NCBI GenBank assembly: GCA_015180985.1
Contig: CP054185.1
Location: 1,791,001-1,855,000, forward strand
Length of the DNA stretch: 64,000 nucleotides
Reading direction: 5' to 3'
DNA from: Flammeovirgaceae bacterium
Lineage (GTDB): Bacteria > Bacteroidota > Bacteroidia > Cytophagales > Cyclobacteriaceae
How positions within the stretch are numbered: position 1 is the stretch's first letter; each line of letters opens with the position of its first letter. The notes beneath the pieces are model-generated. The model did not search any database and was not told the origin of the DNA. It saw only the letters and a list, made by a program, of their open reading frames with translations. Of this stretch, positions 57,189 through 63,484 are shown in pieces. The position numbers were made by a program, and so were the translations under genes.

Positions 57189-57215
57189 CGGCCGGCTTTA
57201 ACGATTAATTTATGC

Positions 57216-57252
57216 AAGTCTGGCTGGATAACCCGGCCAGACTTTTATTTTT
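57216..57252 (+). terminator. Terminator after the propeller gene
   Basis: AAGTCTGGC (57216-57224) pairs with GCCAGACTT (57236-57244) around 11 nt and is followed by TTATTTTT. It lies inside the longer possible reading of the next gene, so it supports the ABC ATPase start at 57263. Confidence 0.88.
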
Positions 57253-57262
57253 GGAGTTTCAG

Positions 57263-57895
57263 ATGGTTACTGTAAGAAATTTGTCGTTTACGTACGCAGG
57301 TTCAACGCCTATGTCCTTTCCTGATTTTCAAGTTGGTAGCGGTGAACATGCCCTGCTGTTGGGCGACTCGGGTAGTGGTAAAACAACGTTGCTTCATCTT
57401 ATAGGCGGCCTGTTGCGCGGTTACACAGGGTCGGTGCAAGTTGATGGAGCCGAACTGGCTGATCTTTCGGAAAAGGAATTGGATCACCTTCGCGGAAGAA
57501 AAATCGGATTTGTTTTTCAGCGCAATCATTTAATCAGCGCACTAACCGTTAAGCAAAATCTGTTACTGGCATCCTACCTGGCGGAAGCGCCATTGGCTGC
57601 ACAACGCGTTGAAGAGGTGCTTAATCACCTCTCGCTTACCAATTACAGAAATCAAAGCGTATTAAAAATAAGTCAGGGCCAGGCGCAACGGGTGGCCATT
57701 GCCCGCGCGGTACTGAATAAACCTTCGGTAATCCTGGCCGATGAACCGACTTCGGCATTAGACGATAAAAACTGCGAGCGGGTGATTAACCTGTTGCTTC
57801 AGGCGGCAAACGAAAACAAAACTACCTTGTTGGTGGCCACGCATGACCACCGCCTGAAATCTGTTATCAGTCAACACATTATGCTGCGCGCATGA
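57263..57895 (+). CDS. ABC transporter ATP-binding protein (LolD/MacB-like)
   Basis: Cytoplasmic ATPase of 210 aa: Walker A GDSGSGKTT, signature ISQGQAQRVAIARA (the first residues differ from LSGGQ), Walker B VILADEPTSALDD and the H-loop ATHD. The MVTVRNLSFTYAG start at 57263 is preferred over an ATG at 57212, which would read through the terminator. It overlaps the permease gene by 4 nt. LolD-type ATPases pair with FtsX-like permeases, and this is one. Confidence 0.92.
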   Translation: MVTVRNLSFTYAGSTPMSFPDFQVGSGEHALLLGDSGSGKTTLLHLIGGLLRGYTGSVQVDGAELADLSEKELDHLRGRKIGFVFQRNHLISALTVKQNLLLASYLAEAPLAAQRVEEVLNHLSLTNYRNQSVLKISQGQAQRVAIARAVLNKPSVILADEPTSALDDKNCERVINLLLQAANENKTTLLVATHDHRLKSVISQHIMLRA

Positions 57896-59121
57896 ACCTG
57901 GGCATATTGGTATGGAGTTACCTGAAAGCAAGGCCGCTGAACACGGTACTGAATATTGTATTGCTTTCGCTGGGTATTGCGGTAATGGTAGTGCTGCTTC
58001 TTTTCAGCAGGCAACTGGAAGAGAAGATTCAATCCAATGCAAAAGGAATTGACCTTGTTGTTGGAGCGAAAGGGAGTCCACTGCAATTGATTCTTTGCAC
58101 CATTTTTCATATTGATTTTCCTACCGGCAACATAAACCTGGCCGAGGCCGAAAAAATTGCGAAGCATCGCCTTGTAAAAAAAGCAATACCCATGGCGCTG
58201 GGCGACAGTTATCAGGTATTTCGCATTATTGGCACCAACCTGGATTATCCTGCTTTATACAATGCTGAATTGCAGTCCGGACAATGGTTTCAGCATGATC
58301 TGGAAGTCGTGTTGGGAGCCAACGTGGCATCCCTTACCGGGTTTGGTGTTGGCGATAAATTTGAAAGTGCGCACGGCCTTTCGGCCGGAGGGCACGCCCA
58401 CGAAGAACACCAGTTTAAGGTTGTTGGCATTTTGAAGAATACCGGCTCGGTACTTGATAACCTTATCCTCACCTCGGTGGAAAGTGTGTGGAAAGTACAC
58501 GACCTGCTTGTTGAAGTGGTCACTGATTCACTTCGAAAGTCGGTATTGGTGCCTTCGGTGGCAGCCGGTGATTCAACGAAAGAGCTTACTTCCATATTAA
58601 TTCAATATCGTTCGCCCATGGGCGCCATCCAATTGCCGCGCTATGTAAACCAGCAAACCAGCATGCAGGCCGCATCGCCAGCCTTTGAAACAGCCCGCCT
58701 CTTCACCATTCTGGGTACGGGTGTTGATGCGCTGATGATTTTGGCTTATGTGCTGATAATTATTTCAGCTCTGAGCATTTTTATTGCCCTGTATAATTCG
58801 CTGAAGGAAAGGCGTTTTGATTTGGCCGTTATGCGCACGATGGGCGCCACCCGCATAAGACTGGTTTTTACCATTTTGACCGAAGGTGTAAGTTTAACGT
58901 TGTTGGGTAGCCTGGTTGGTTTGGCGCTGGGGCATGGAGTTGTGTGGGTGATGGCGCAGGTGATTGAAGAGATTGAGAAAACCGGAATTACCGGACTTAT
59001 TATTTATAGAGAAGAATGGATAATTTTGGCGGGAAGTTTGTTGTTGGGAATGTTGTGTGCTTTACTGCCTGCCTGGCAGGCGTATCGAACGGATATTTCA
59101 AAAGTACTGGCTGGAAACTAA
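57892..59121 (+). CDS. FtsX/MacB-like ABC permease with His motif
   Basis: Inner-membrane permease of 409 aa: one N-terminal span, a large periplasmic MacB-type domain, and three C-terminal spans (about 270-300, 330-355 and 380-400), ending ALLPAWQAYRTDISKVLAGN. In the periplasmic part the segment G-H-A-H-E-E-H has His168, His170 and His173, a possible metal site. N-terminal TGNI-NLAEAEKIAKHRLVKKAIPMALGDS is family-like. With the ATPase and a secreted CxxC protein it may handle a metal or metal complex, an inference. Confidence 0.88.
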   Translation: MNLGILVWSYLKARPLNTVLNIVLLSLGIAVMVVLLLFSRQLEEKIQSNAKGIDLVVGAKGSPLQLILCTIFHIDFPTGNINLAEAEKIAKHRLVKKAIPMALGDSYQVFRIIGTNLDYPALYNAELQSGQWFQHDLEVVLGANVASLTGFGVGDKFESAHGLSAGGHAHEEHQFKVVGILKNTGSVLDNLILTSVESVWKVHDLLVEVVTDSLRKSVLVPSVAAGDSTKELTSILIQYRSPMGAIQLPRYVNQQTSMQAASPAFETARLFTILGTGVDALMILAYVLIIISALSIFIALYNSLKERRFDLAVMRTMGATRIRLVFTILTEGVSLTLLGSLVGLALGHGVVWVMAQVIEEIEKTGITGLIIYREEWIILAGSLLLGMLCALLPAWQAYRTDISKVLAGN

Positions 59122-59158: not shown

Positions 59159-59611
59159 ATGAGTAATCTGCGAATTATACTTTTTGCTGTAAGTTTTCTT
59201 ATGGCATCTTCAGTGGTCGCTCAAACCCCGAAGTTTGATGCCTGGAACGAATTTGCCAAAACCAAGTTTGAGCCCAAATATTACGAGAAAATTGGCGAGT
59301 ATCTTTTTTACCCCAATTTTCCGGATGCCTTAAAAGCACTGGTGGGTAAAGAAATTACGGTTGAGGGTTACTATGTCCCGTTTGCGCCTGAAGAGGGCAA
59401 CTACATTATCATTTCAAAATACCCCATGAGCCAGTGCTTCTTTTGCGGAGGTGGCGGGCCGGAGTCTATCGCTGAGGTTACTTTTAAAACCAATCCCGGA
59501 AAATTTCAGGTAGATGACCTGATAACCGTGCGCGGTAAACTTAAACTGAACTCCGATGACATTGACCATGTTAATTTCATTCTCACCGAAGCGGTGTTGG
59601 TGAAAAAGTAA
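59159..59611 (+). CDS. Secreted CxxC protein, DUF3299-like
   Basis: A 150-aa exported protein with a signal peptide (RIILFAVSFLMASSVVAQ). The body is OB-like (VGKEITVEGYYVPFAPEEGN) and has Cys93 and Cys96 in SQCFFCGGGGPESIAEV, which recalls DUF3299 and related Planctomycete/Bacteroidota proteins linked to FtsX-type ABC genes. The reading from 59057 overlaps the permease and is rejected. It probably binds a metal or acts in a periplasmic step with the transporter; the function is unproven. Confidence 0.72.
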   Translation: MSNLRIILFAVSFLMASSVVAQTPKFDAWNEFAKTKFEPKYYEKIGEYLFYPNFPDALKALVGKEITVEGYYVPFAPEEGNYIIISKYPMSQCFFCGGGGPESIAEVTFKTNPGKFQVDDLITVRGKLKLNSDDIDHVNFILTEAVLVKK

Positions 59612-59723: not shown

Positions 59724-59754
59724 TTTGCTTTTATAGTTAGGATTCCTAACTTTA
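59724..59754 (+). promoter_or_regulatory. Promoter with palindrome before the protoglobin operon
   Basis: TTTG at 59724-59727 (-33) and TAACTTTA at 59747-59754 (-7 like) are separated by 19 nt. Between and over them lies AGTTAGGA-T-TCCTAACT (59735-59751), a perfect 8-bp palindrome with a 1-nt centre. A repressor bound there would block the -7 element; the operon's own MarR regulator is the natural candidate. Confidence 0.65.
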
Positions 59755-59779
59755 TGCAGTTAAACAAAATTTACACCTT

Positions 59780-60361
59780 ATGGCAACAAGTAAAGGATAC
59801 GCTTACGGCCAGGCCGGGCTCGACAAATCGCCTGTTTCACTTCAGGATTTGGCTTTATTAAAGAAAACGTTGTTATGGACCGATGAGGACGATCGCGCCC
59901 TGCGGATGGCGGGCGATGTGTTAAAGGACCAGGTTGACAAGGTGCTGGATTTGTGGTACGGGTATGTAGGGGGTAATGATCACCTGGTACATTATTTCAC
60001 CAAAAACGGGCAGCCCAATGCCGACTATCTGGCTGCCGTACGGGCCCGCTTCGGGCAATGGATTATGGATGTATGCAACCGCCCCTACGATCAAACCTGG
60101 CTCGACTATCAGTATGAAATTGCCAGGCGGCACCATAGTTCCAAGAAAAACAAAACCGATGGCGTTGATACCGTTCCCATAATTCATTTCCGGTACATGG
60201 TAGCCTTTATTTACCCGATTACCGCAACCATCAAATCATTTCTTGAAAAAAAGGGGCATGCTGCAAAAGAAGTGGATGCCATGCATCATGCATGGTTCAA
60301 AGCCGTAACCTTAACGGTCGTACTGTGGTGCTATCCGTATATCAAAAACGGTGAATTTTAA
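59780..60361 (+). CDS. Protoglobin-domain protein
   Basis: Single-domain sensor-type globin of 193 aa that should bind haem and O2, NO or CO. The protoglobin pattern is clear: DRALRMAGDVLKDQVDKVLDLWYGYV, WIMDVCNRPYDQTWLDYQYEIARRHH, IIHFRYMVAFIYPITATI (with the proximal His in this region) and AMHHAWFKAVTLTVVLW. No signalling domain is fused. It heads an operon with DUF2024 and MarR genes and has a palindrome in its promoter. Confidence 0.93.
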   Translation: MATSKGYAYGQAGLDKSPVSLQDLALLKKTLLWTDEDDRALRMAGDVLKDQVDKVLDLWYGYVGGNDHLVHYFTKNGQPNADYLAAVRARFGQWIMDVCNRPYDQTWLDYQYEIARRHHSSKKNKTDGVDTVPIIHFRYMVAFIYPITATIKSFLEKKGHAAKEVDAMHHAWFKAVTLTVVLWCYPYIKNGEF

Positions 60362-60362
60362 T

Positions 60363-60626
60363 ATGGAAGTAGCCGTTTGGGATACCTGGGTTAAACGGAG
60401 TGATGGCCGCTTAATGAATTTTGACATAATTGTTCCACGCACCTTCACTGATGCAACTAAAATTTTCTCCTTTGGCACGGAGTACCTTGCCTCAAAGGGA
60501 ATGCAAGGAAAACTACTCTCTTCAGCCGAATGCCGGTTTTGTCATGTTCAGGTGGCCTTGCCGGAATGGATAAGCCAAATTAAAGAGCTGGGGTATTATA
60601 TTTGTGAATTGCAAGGATGTGAATAA
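60363..60626 (+). CDS. DUF2024 family protein
   Basis: An 87-aa protein of the DUF2024 family: MEVAVWDTWVKRSDGRLMNF, then ASKGMQGKLLSSAECRFCHV with the family's C-R-F-C-H motif, and GYYICELQGC at the end. The function is unknown; the CxxCH-like residues may bind metal or react with a thiol. It starts 1 nt after the protoglobin stop (start choice 60363 over 60351) and overlaps the MarR start by one base (TAATG). Confidence 0.9.
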   Translation: MEVAVWDTWVKRSDGRLMNFDIIVPRTFTDATKIFSFGTEYLASKGMQGKLLSSAECRFCHVQVALPEWISQIKELGYYICELQGCE

Positions 60627-61240
60627 TGCCGCAATCGCCATTTAATTTACAGGTACAGAATACGCAGGTTGAAGGAAGAATTGTAATTGCGCTTGAACGA
60701 ATAGCCCAGGCATTTCGTGTATTGCTGTGGAATGAGGGAAAAGCCCACGCACTAAGTCCCGTGCAGGTGCAAATACTGATCTTTCTTCTTTACCAGCCGG
60801 TTGAAAGACGAACGATTAGTCTGCTAGCCGAAGCATTTAATTTAACCAAGGCTACTCTTAGTGATTCGGTAAAAGTACTGGAGAAGAAGAAGTTGGTGAA
60901 GCGCGTACCCAATCGGGATTTGCGAAGTCATACGCTTGAACTAACGGCTAAGGGGCGGGAGTTAGCCATGCAATCAGCCGTTTTTACACAGGAAATTCAA
61001 CGTCCAATCAATAAACTAAGCCAGGCTGAAAAAGAATCCATGCTCCTTGGCTTACTCGACATTATTTATCATTTAAATCAACAAGGTATAATTAGTATTC
61101 AGCGGATGTGTTATTCCTGTGTCCATTATAAGGCCAATTTTAAAGGGCATCCTCATTATTGCCGGTTGCTTAATCAACAACTCCGGCAAGCGGATATCCG
61201 GATTGATTGCCCCGAATATTCATCGGTATTTTCTACTTGA
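60626..61240 (+). CDS. MarR family regulator with C-terminal four-Cys extension
   Basis: Winged-helix regulator of 204 aa. The MarR core: VQVQILIFLLYQPVERRTIS, AEAFNLTKATLSDSVKVLEKKKLVKRVPNRD and the wing. After the usual end (about 150) an extra domain has Cys162, Cys165, Cys179 and Cys195 (C-Y-S-C-V-H-Y ... H-Y-C ... D-C-P-E-Y), a layout able to hold zinc or an iron-sulfur cluster. It is the last gene of the protoglobin operon and may be the sensor for the palindrome upstream. Confidence 0.85.
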   Translation: MPQSPFNLQVQNTQVEGRIVIALERIAQAFRVLLWNEGKAHALSPVQVQILIFLLYQPVERRTISLLAEAFNLTKATLSDSVKVLEKKKLVKRVPNRDLRSHTLELTAKGRELAMQSAVFTQEIQRPINKLSQAEKESMLLGLLDIIYHLNQQGIISIQRMCYSCVHYKANFKGHPHYCRLLNQQLRQADIRIDCPEYSSVFST

Positions 61241-61267
61241 CAACCTCACTCGTTACTTTTATACTTG
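61236..61267 (+). promoter_or_regulatory. Promoter of the cobalamin riboswitch transcript
   Basis: CTTG at 61236-61239 and TATACTTG at 61260-61267 (TAnnTTTG with one mismatch) lie 20 nt apart; the start of transcription would fall at the beginning of the riboswitch P1 stem. The -33 part overlaps the end of the marR gene. Confidence 0.5.
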
Positions 61268-61272
61268 CACCG

Positions 61273-61455
61273 CTTTGGTTCCTGACTGGTTAACCAATCA
61301 GAAAGGATGAAAAGGGAACCCCGTGAAAAGCGGGGGCTGTTCCCGCAACTGTAAGCATCGTTTGCACTTGTCTGATTCTTTAAGCCACTTTTCAGACGTC
61401 ATCGTCAGGATGGGAAGGCGCAGGCAAGGGATGCAAGCCAGGAGACCTGCCAAAG
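61273..61455 (+). ncRNA. Cobalamin (adenosylcobalamin-type) riboswitch
   Basis: All landmarks are present in order: AAAGGGAA-like part at 61310-61317, CCGTGAAAAGCGGGGGCTG, TTCCCGCAACTGTAAGC, GCCACTT, GGGAAGGCGC and the B12 box GCCAGGAGACCTGCC (61437-61451). The P1 stem pairs CTTTGG (61273-61278) with CCAAAG (61450-61455). It should lower expression of the downstream BtuB-like receptor when cobalamin is plentiful. The 130 nt to the start codon form the expression platform; no obvious terminator was found there, so control of translation is likely. Confidence 0.95.
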
Positions 61456-61585
61456 TAAATTGTTTTTCAGTGCTTCGGGTAAAAGCGACTGTGATTCATG
61501 TGCCTGCGCGGTAGCCTTATCGCCTCCCACCTGATTCATTTTCAGCCTTTACTCTTTTTTCGAACCGTTAAAACCTTTTTCAATT

Positions 61586-63484
61586 ATGAAAAAAGAGATT
61601 AAAGTCTGGGCAATGACCATGATTGCCTGTTGGTTCTGGGTACCAACGCAAACAAACGCCCAACAAGATTCACTGTCATCAACTACACTTCGTGAGGTGG
61701 TGGTAACGGCCACCAAGTTTCCGAAAAATGTTTCTGAAACCGGAAAAATACTCACCATCATTGATGAGGAGCAATTATCACGAAGTGCCGGAAAGGATTT
61801 GTCGCAATTGCTGAATGAGCAGGTGGGCCTGGTCATCAACGGGGCGAACAGTAATCCCGCCAAGGATAAATCGGTTTTTTTGCGTGGTGCAGCAGGTAAG
61901 TATACACTTATACTTGTTGATGGCATACCGGTAAACGATCCTTCGGGCATAGATGGTGCTTTTGATTTGCGCTTGCTTTCTATCGACCAGGTTGAACGCA
62001 TTGAAATTTTAAAAGGAAGCCAATCGACCTTGTACGGAACCGATGCCATTGCCGGGGTAATCAACATCATCACCAAAAAGAAAGGAGATAAACCGGTAAG
62101 TGGGTCAGGCACGGTAAGCTACGGCAGCTACAATACCTTTCGGGGGAATGCTGGCGTTTCGGGCAGTACGAAAAAATTTGATTACAACCTGGGCTACACA
62201 CGTTTTCAAACCGATGGGCTCAGCGAGGCCAGAGATACAACCGGTACGGCCGGTTTTGATAAGGATGGTGCGGAACAGCATGCAGTTCAGGTATACGTGG
62301 GGTACAAGCCGGTTGAAAAACTTTCTTTGCGTCCGTTTTTGCGGTTTAACGATTTTAAAGGTGACTATGATTTGGGTGCATTTACCGATGATGCCGGGGC
62401 AAAGTATGATGCTACCACCTTGCAGTATGGGCTAAATACGGATTACCGGTTAACAAATGGTTCTGTATCGTTAATGTATGCACATAATAAATACGAAAGA
62501 ACATTTTCGGATATGTTTGGCTCCAACGATTATGATGGCCGCTTTGACCACGGTGAAATTTTTGCTCAGTTCAACCTATCCGCCCATGTGCAAGTATTGG
62601 GTGGGCTTTCGTACCAACAATTTAAAATGATAGCCACAAACACCACTATTGAAAATCCTGAAACAACCATCACAAGTCCTTACGTTTCATTTTTCATTAA
62701 CAACTTAAAGGGGTTTTCAGCAGAAGTGGGGGGACGTTTGAACAGCCATTCGGTATATGGAAATAATTTTACTTACAGTGTTAATCCTTCTTACCTCATC
62801 AATAAAAAAGCAAAGCTGTTCATTAATTATTCCACGGGGTTCAAGGCGCCAACGCTTTCACAATTATATGGCCCGTTTGGTGCCAATGAGGATTTGAAGC
62901 CGGAGGAAAGTAAAAGTTTTGAAGGGGGCTTGCAATGGTTGGCCGAAGATGGGAAGGTGGATGTGCGGTTGACGTACTTCAACCGGAAAATAGATAACGT
63001 AATTGCGTACACCACCGGTTATATAAACTGGGATAAACTGGCTGACCGGGGCGTTGAAGTGGAGGCATTCTATAAATTGAACAAGTTCACTTTCACGGGC
63101 TTTTATGCGTATGTGGAAGGAGAAGTTACCACACCCGTGGGTGCAGGTACGGAGACAAAGCCGAATGATCTGCTTCGGAGGCCAAAGCACTCGGTGGGGC
63201 TTAATGTGGGCTTCCAGGCAACGGAAAAACTTTTTGCCAGTTTGAACTTTAAAACCTTCGGCCAACGAAACGATTTATTTTTCGATTTTAACACGTTTGC
63301 CGCAAGCCCGGTGGTGTTGGACGCCTACCAGTTACTGGATGTTTATATGGAGTATGTTGTGATCAACAACCGGATAAAATTGTTTGGCGACTTCCGCAAC
63401 CTCCTTAATCAGGATTATTACGAAGTGTACGGGTACAGTACGCAGCGTTTTAATGCAACGGTAGGGGTTCGGGCACAATTTTAA
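61586..63484 (+). CDS. btuB: TonB-dependent receptor, BtuB-like (vitamin B12)
   Basis: Outer membrane receptor of 632 aa that probably imports cobalamin using TonB. It has a signal peptide (NAQQDS start of mature part), a TonB box-like segment (TLREVVVTATKFPKN), the plug domain with LLNEQVGLVINGANS, L-I-L-V-D-G-I-P-V-N and IEILKGSQSTLYGTDAIAGVINIITK, and a barrel ending in aromatic Phe (GVRAQF). The riboswitch just upstream supports a B12 substrate, while sequence alone would also allow other TonB substrates. Confidence 0.9.
   Translation: MKKEIKVWAMTMIACWFWVPTQTNAQQDSLSSTTLREVVVTATKFPKNVSETGKILTIIDEEQLSRSAGKDLSQLLNEQVGLVINGANSNPAKDKSVFLRGAAGKYTLILVDGIPVNDPSGIDGAFDLRLLSIDQVERIEILKGSQSTLYGTDAIAGVINIITKKKGDKPVSGSGTVSYGSYNTFRGNAGVSGSTKKFDYNLGYTRFQTDGLSEARDTTGTAGFDKDGAEQHAVQVYVGYKPVEKLSLRPFLRFNDFKGDYDLGAFTDDAGAKYDATTLQYGLNTDYRLTNGSVSLMYAHNKYERTFSDMFGSNDYDGRFDHGEIFAQFNLSAHVQVLGGLSYQQFKMIATNTTIENPETTITSPYVSFFINNLKGFSAEVGGRLNSHSVYGNNFTYSVNPSYLINKKAKLFINYSTGFKAPTLSQLYGPFGANEDLKPEESKSFEGGLQWLAEDGKVDVRLTYFNRKIDNVIAYTTGYINWDKLADRGVEVEAFYKLNKFTFTGFYAYVEGEVTTPVGAGTETKPNDLLRRPKHSVGLNVGFQATEKLFASLNFKTFGQRNDLFFDFNTFAASPVVLDAYQLLDVYMEYVVINNRIKLFGDFRNLLNQDYYEVYGYSTQRFNATVGVRAQF

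Follow-up and report, generated by a model that had tools for sequence, protein, structure and literature searches.

Which protein controls the protoglobin gene of this Flammeovirgaceae bacterium, and to which signal does it respond? The gene lies in a 64,000-nucleotide stretch of a complete 3.38-Mb genome (G000:C1:1791001-1855000, referred to here as the window), where a protoglobin, a DUF2024 protein, and a MarR-family regulator are encoded in a row (Table 1). A sequence-only reading of this DNA had named these three products, together with a C-R-F-C-H motif in the DUF2024 protein, and the assignments were confirmed by matches to PF11563, PF09630, and PF12802. Because the protoglobin and DUF2024 genes are separated by 1 bp and the DUF2024 and MarR genes share an overlapping TAATG, we treat the three as one operon. 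The exact set also occurs at other loci, e.g., L040/L170, L061, L111, and L165. Directly 3′ of the operon, and unrelated to it, is a cobalamin riboswitch (RF00174, 108 bits, 61259-61468, plus strand), behind which a BtuB-like TonB-dependent receptor is encoded (61586-63484, plus strand). On the 5′ side, a MacB/FtsX-type ABC exporter (57212-59121) precedes the gene of a 150-aa secreted protein with the motif CFFCGGGGPE, for which Pfam has no family (59159-59611, plus strand).

Table 1. Features of the protoglobin locus (positions in the window) and copies of the secreted protein family at orthologous loci
Feature	Position	Strand	Evidence or description
-33 promoter element TTTG (Bacteroidota type)	59724..59727	+	TTT(G) conserved upstream of ortholog operators
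17-bp palindrome AGTTAGGATTCCTAACT, putative MarR operator	59735..59751	.	Sequence, genome search, ortholog comparison
-7 promoter element TAACTTTA, consensus TAnnTTTG	59747..59754	+	19 bp from TTTG; overlapped by palindrome
Protoglobin, single-domain	59780..60361	+	193 aa; PF11563, 108 bits (cut-off 25), E 4.5e-31
DUF2024 protein	60363..60626	+	87 aa; PF09630, 92.5 bits (cut-off 27)
MarR-family winged-helix regulator with C-terminal Cys4 tail	60626..61240	+	204 aa; PF12802 (MarR_2)
C-terminal Cys4 domain of MarR	61079..61237	+	Residues 152-204
Secreted ~240-aa family copies	L033:4859-5591, L251:5829-6572, L253:5669-6385, L259:4720-5436, L261:1718-2449

Upstream of the protoglobin gene, the palindrome is made up of AGTTAGGA T TCCTAACT, i.e., two perfect 8-bp arms around a single central base, and it ends 28 bp 5′ of the start codon. 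The perfect 8+8 palindrome overlapping the -7 element that had been noted earlier is borne out by the sequence and by the register of the orthologs: the promoter boxes of the window are placed as in the ortholog profile, and their register is nearly that of the internal-operator class described below, TTTG(-12)...TAACTTTA(12). Across the genome's own 3.38 Mb, the palindrome is the sole site within 3 mismatches (control for this search, reversed pattern, 11 matches per strand). An RNA hairpin or Rfam element was also considered for the palindrome and was rejected, as the loop would have 1 base and the Rfam match was by chance only.

Next, we looked into how the palindrome is distributed across orthologous loci. 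In a set of 36 ortholog neighborhoods plus the window, it was present at most operon starts. We then used 109 distinct loci, drawn from the bacterium's own family, the Cyclobacteriaceae, and from the best 80 relatives in 84,980 species genomes; because of how they were chosen, these 80 collection loci are the closest relatives, and the ORF caller used on the loci was crude. The palindrome was found with at most 2 mismatches in 103 of the 109 loci, so that the check that it should precede orthologous operons was passed, and there were 187 sites in total (same loci, 3 sites in Markov shuffles and 0 with the reversed pattern). The operator lies 20 to 90 bp 5′ of the first gene in the ortholog operons and recurs before internal genes. 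Alignment of the 103 first operators gave TTT(G/T)-taT-AGTTAGGAnTCCTtACT-ATATTTG, in which the -7 box TATATTTG starts at the final base of the palindrome, 19 bp past TTT(G); the promoter form is TTT(G)-N19-TATATTTG, with the -7 bases 84 to 100% conserved. The 82 internal operators, located 5′ of secreted-protein, DUF2024, or MarR genes, have the form TTTG-N20-TAACTTTA, with the palindrome between the boxes. Predicted operators thus stand in front of several genes per cluster, an unusual arrangement for so small a locus, and the operator code of the Bacteroidota is predicted to be TAGTWAGGAnTCCTWACTA inside a -33/-7 promoter. The site was not found in eight plasmid loci of distant MarR relatives, and we therefore take this code to be limited to Bacteroidota-type relatives.

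We also evaluated which protein binds the palindrome by comparing genomes with and without the MarR gene. MarR orthologs are present in 35 of the 196 genomes of the family, and the 19-bp consensus (at most 1 mismatch) was found in 27 of these 35 genomes and in 2 of the 161 genomes lacking MarR (P value = 8 × 10−24), with a single locus in each site-bearing genome. In one of the two exceptions (G058), the site is 5′ of a secreted-protein gene at a contig end and the contig is cut inside the operon; in the other (G063), it falls where two coding ORFs of an unrelated locus meet. Alternatively, a different regulator (a Crp/Fnr protein or an Rrf2 of the NsrR kind) could bind the palindrome, with MarR working elsewhere, and indeed NsrR-like Rrf2 genes adjoin the operon in 7 of the 109 loci and Crp-like genes occur in about 10. 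Against such an arrangement, the presence of the site follows that of MarR, 185 of the 187 sites lie within 2.9 kb upstream of MarR, and the bacterium itself carries a single site, its nearest match to NsrR being a remote Rrf2 with 26% identity. We rejected the NsrR/Crp assignment on the co-occurrence with MarR and the lack of a close NsrR in the bacterium's own genome, and we consider that another regulator can hardly be the one that binds here. Since the conserved palindrome in the -33/-7 spacer tracks the MarR gene, since it occurs once in the bacterium's own genome, and since there is no close Rrf2, the prediction that MarR acts through this site, and on essentially one locus, is strongly supported. 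The same holds for the predicted repression of the protoglobin operon by its own last gene: the earlier proposal that MarR represses through a promoter palindrome gains support from the phylogenetic footprint and from the co-occurrence.

The regulator itself is a MarR protein by profile (PF12802, 39.3 bits, cut-off 27; PF13463, 27.5 bits, cut-off 22.2), and no Rrf2 domain was found in it in Pfam or NCBIfam scans. Its AF2 model (pLDDT 81) shares the fold of the MarR metal sensors AdcR/ZitR and MepR over residues 8 to 160 (Z 14.6 over 132 residues at 3.0 Å for AdcR and Z 14.2 for MepR). These sensors have palindromic operators in promoters, as is predicted for the window's MarR, but their solved chains stop short of the Cys4 tail, and the match to the AdcR zinc MarR family was far under the cut-off (NCBIfam NF038251, 19.5 bits versus 175). 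The tail has the pattern R160-x-C162-x2-C165-x13-C179-x15-C195, with a further R192. The sequence-only reading had placed the four Cys exactly right, as the alignment columns agree, and its check that they should be conserved in orthologs was passed: all four are invariant in 37/37 orthologs of the family and in the best 80/80 other relatives. R160 and R192 are likewise conserved alongside them. Plasmid-borne relatives were found in Rhizobiales, Sphingomonadales, Paraburkholderia, Thermus, and Deinococcus, and these members of the Pseudomonadota and Deinococcota keep all four Cys as well as R192, such that the Cys4 set is invariant across three phyla. In the tails of the relatives, the loop from the second Cys to the third varies in length, and 15 residues always separate the third from the fourth. 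These comparisons support the view that the tail is a conserved, metal-ligand-like domain; no family is assigned to it.

The genes that accompany the regulator were counted across the 109 loci. The most frequent partners were a CPVC thioredoxin-like protein (71 loci), DUF2024 (70), and a secreted protein of ~243 aa (41), followed by a downstream YggS (19), protoglobin (13), truncated haemoglobin (12), TlpA-like protein (10), hemerythrin (8), NsrR-like Rrf2, RIC, and GGACT (7 each), Trp-dioxygenase-like protein (5), and 2Fe-2S ferredoxin (4). A protoglobin or truncated haemoglobin is present in 23 loci and absent from 86, and a globin, RIC, hemerythrin, or Rrf2 gene is present in 28. Family-wide, 22 of the ~25 DUF2024 genes and 5/6 stand-alone protoglobins are located at MarR. 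Even when only well-supported branches of the MarR tree are counted, the changes number at least 7 for protoglobin and at least 5 for truncated haemoglobin, from which the comparison indicates that globins were gained or lost several times independently. Because globins were repeatedly recruited or lost on this tree, the type of globin is interchangeable and the sensor is not. The three-gene protoglobin system does not stand as a unit. The conserved module rather consists of MarR, the CPVC thioredoxin-like protein, DUF2024, the secreted ~243-aa protein, and the TlpA-like protein, with protoglobin as one interchangeable effector.

The window's protoglobin matches that of Methanosarcina acetivorans over its full length (PDB 2veb, E 3.6e-76) and shares its proximal-His region RHH, with H118 invariant in 18/18 sequences and aligned to H120 of 2veb; it differs in being embedded in a MarR-DUF2024 operon. 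The DUF2024 protein carries C57-R-F-C60-H61, with C57-x2-C60-H61 and C86 conserved, and matches a protein of the same family with an ECRFCH motif, PDB 2hfq (E 2.3e-17), which we take to come from Nitrosomonas europaea. DUF2024 is also present in 29/30 Thaumarchaeota, where it is entered as metal-binding (PMC6393860). The window's DUF2024 is distinguished from these proteins by its predicted control by MarR; we found no paper on DUF2024 function in the open-access literature. In one genome (G158:C39:322126-322374, locus L244), the DUF2024 gene has two in-frame stops while MarR, the operator, and the neighbors look intact, and it is probably a decayed partner. Two DUF2024 paralogs outside the MarR locus (G046:C338:14419, L247, and G110:C31:8259, L246) are less than 1 kb upstream of RIC, an iron-sulfur repair gene. 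The secreted ~240-aa family has W-H-x-H-W and HPDFDD motifs, is next to MarR in three phyla, and is without a Pfam or NCBIfam entry; its homologs adjoin MarR in Deinococcus, rhizobia, and Hymenobacter. In Sphingomonads, thioredoxin and TlpA-like partners come after MarR.

What the tail binds was assessed with profiles and models, and the hints toward a HiPIP-like fold are all under significance. At a low Pfam threshold, HIPIP was matched more often than any other family, by 5 of 42 tails (best E 0.016); HPIP_like was also among the weak matches (E 0.016), and one tail scored 13.9 bits against a Pfam HIPIP gathering score of 22. With a tail model of modest confidence (pLDDT 73, pTM 0.51), the top Foldseek match, below significance, was 2y8n_B (E 5.3, prob 0.08), an 86-residue chain of a glycyl-radical enzyme; in VIA-align, nothing scored Z 2 or more, and PDB profile searches with the tail returned no HiPIP up to E 10. 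Small subunits of glycyl-radical enzymes adopt HiPIP-like folds that bind [4Fe-4S] (PMC12358834, PMC12590467). The tail resembles HiPIP and the HPAD gamma and BSS beta/gamma subunits in the order of its four Cys, with CxxC followed by an aromatic residue and similar spacing, but its sequence and fold matches to them are not significant, and a HiPIP-like tail is best regarded as a lead. We consider it probable that the tail carries an Fe-S cluster and rather unlikely that it holds zinc. A wider and tentative proposal is that these regulators form a new family of Fe-S repressors that sense NO or redox state through a HiPIP-like [4Fe-4S] domain fused to MarR. The family would occur in Bacteroidota, Balneolota, Ignavibacteria, Pseudomonadota, and Deinococcota, and in Bacteroidota it would use an operator code of its own.

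If the Cys4 set were a structural or thiol-reactive zinc site, oxidants (peroxide, HOCl, or disulfide stress) would be sensed as they oxidize the Cys and free the zinc, and the operon would serve thiol-redox defense with no special part for NO. Four-Cys zinc sites are common, the CPVC thioredoxin-like and in part the TlpA-like proteins are the most constant partners, Sphingomonad copies are arranged MarR-Trx-TlpA, and copies on alphaproteobacterial (rhizobial) and Hymenobacter plasmids have catalase, SOD, AhpD-like, and HTHP neighbors, with which ROS fits as well as NO. However, C-x2-C-x(9-16)-C-x15-C has one CxxC knuckle, whereas zinc ribbons typically have two, the low-level profile and fold matches lean to HiPIP-like proteins, and the repeated recruitment of haem globins and the proximity of RIC and NsrR favor gas or Fe-S damage, leaving this zinc-based scheme unlikely. 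O2 would be the signal if the tail were an FNR-like switch with an oxygen-labile cluster that turned on globin and thiol proteins at oxic-anoxic transitions. Protoglobins and truncated haemoglobins as families bind O2, and the Thermus copy is in a denitrification and respiration island; yet the constant thiol-redox and Fe-S-repair neighbors resemble a damage response, and ArnR, the nearest mechanistic precedent, answers NO and not directly O2 (PMC12343034), so that we regard an O2 switch as improbable.

A gas or redox role is favored by gene context, because globins were recruited repeatedly, because RIC, hemerythrin, and Rrf2 are nearby, and because the neighbors in Thermus are NO related. 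On plasmid pAA3-7b of Thermus thermophilus (L249:5137-12534), the Cys4-tailed MarR adjoins a cytochrome P460 gene in a denitrification island that also has nitrite reductase, Rrf2, and a gene annotated as cbb3-type subunit I, which we read as an NO reductase. Among the 196 family genomes, nosZ was modestly enriched with MarR (27/35 versus 84/161, P value = 0.008), and nirK was not associated (6/35 versus 24/161). RIC presence was set aside as an association, since RIC-like matches in 188/196 genomes make it uninformative and closeness alone counts. The two DUF2024 paralogs close to RIC, and the occurrence of DUF2024 in Thaumarchaeota and Nitrosomonas, also speak for NO. At one locus (L033:1508-4491, in G173; also L128), a row of NsrR-like Rrf2, truncated haemoglobin, Trp-dioxygenase-like, RIC, and hemerythrin genes is directly upstream of the MarR operon. 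A Hymenobacter volaticus plasmid (L261:1-4612) has catalase, the secreted ~243-aa protein, a hexameric tyrosine-coordinated haem protein, protoglobin, DUF2024, a 95-aa protein, and MarR in a row, which may be a longer form of the operon directed at oxidants and haem. For the signal itself, NO is our tentative choice, a general oxidant is less likely, and O2 is the least likely of the three. Of the gas- or redox-responsive loop proposed in the sequence-only reading, the role is thus favored by context and the Cys4 set is conserved, with Fe-S rather than zinc as its probable cofactor and NO, ahead of ROS or O2, as a tentative signal.

Overall, we give a probability of about one-half to a self-repressing redox/NO-stress operon with a [4Fe-4S]-bearing MarR, for which we infer both the cluster and the NO signal. 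A dimeric MarR would bind the 17-bp palindrome between the -33 and -7 boxes and block its own operon, with RNA polymerase and repressor competing over the same 30 bp. The likeliest role of the four invariant Cys is to hold a [4Fe-4S] cluster in the tail, which may have a HiPIP-like fold. The repressor would be released when NO or, with less specificity, reactive oxygen/nitrogen species damage the cluster. Derepression would yield a protoglobin that, judging from its family, may bind and remove NO, O2, or similar ligands, along with DUF2024, a putative metal/thiol protein, and more repressor, which would shut the system again. In most relatives, repressor and operator would control the CPVC thioredoxin-like, TlpA-like, and secreted proteins instead of or with a globin.

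Such a system would act like ArnR and NsrR, with a cluster-bearing repressor of a haem NO-scavenger, and belongs to neither; by profile and fold, its regulator is a member of the MarR family. ArnR of Corynebacterium glutamicum, which represses narKGHJI and hmp, has a wHTH domain reminiscent of MarR/ArsR, a C-terminal sensory domain whose Cys go with a [4Fe-4S] cluster, and an NO-detoxifying haem protein as a target, and NO abolishes its DNA binding (PMC12343034). It differs in having three conserved Cys at 179, 193, and 223 (C-x13-C-x29-C) and in being from Actinobacteria (PMC12343034), whereas the window's MarR has C-x2-C-x13-C-x15-C, is from Bacteroidota, has its own operator and partners, and does not fall in the ArnR family. 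The [4Fe-4S] NO sensors of NsrR/Rrf2 are alike in the proposed logic, in which NO frees a cluster-bound repressor, and in a small regulon, which in Streptomyces coelicolor NsrR comprises three genes (PMC4432287), but they are of another protein family, with no Rrf2 match in the window's MarR.

In the open-access literature, we found no description of the MarR subfamily, the operator, or the DUF2024 link, although subscription papers may hold them, nor a paper linking MarR, protoglobin, and DUF2024; the operator string did not occur in a relevant paper among the matches listed, and no HiPIP-like subunit within a transcription factor was described in the literature covered. To our knowledge, NO and oxidant sensing in Bacteroidota is little described beyond gut Bacteroides. 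Here, comparison alone, across more than 100 loci, yields a regulator together with its exact predicted operator, promoter, and target genes. It also provides a functional lead for DUF2024, fixed in ammonia-oxidizing archaea too, and for an unannotated secreted family. If the proposal is true, MarR proteins would gain a new sensor architecture, and Bacteroidota would have a dedicated single-locus switch for nitrosative/redox stress with DUF2024 and the secreted ~243-aa protein as new effectors. The recurrence of the system across Bacteroidota, with distant relatives in other phyla, points to an unstudied stress-sensing system, probably for NO or other reactive molecules.
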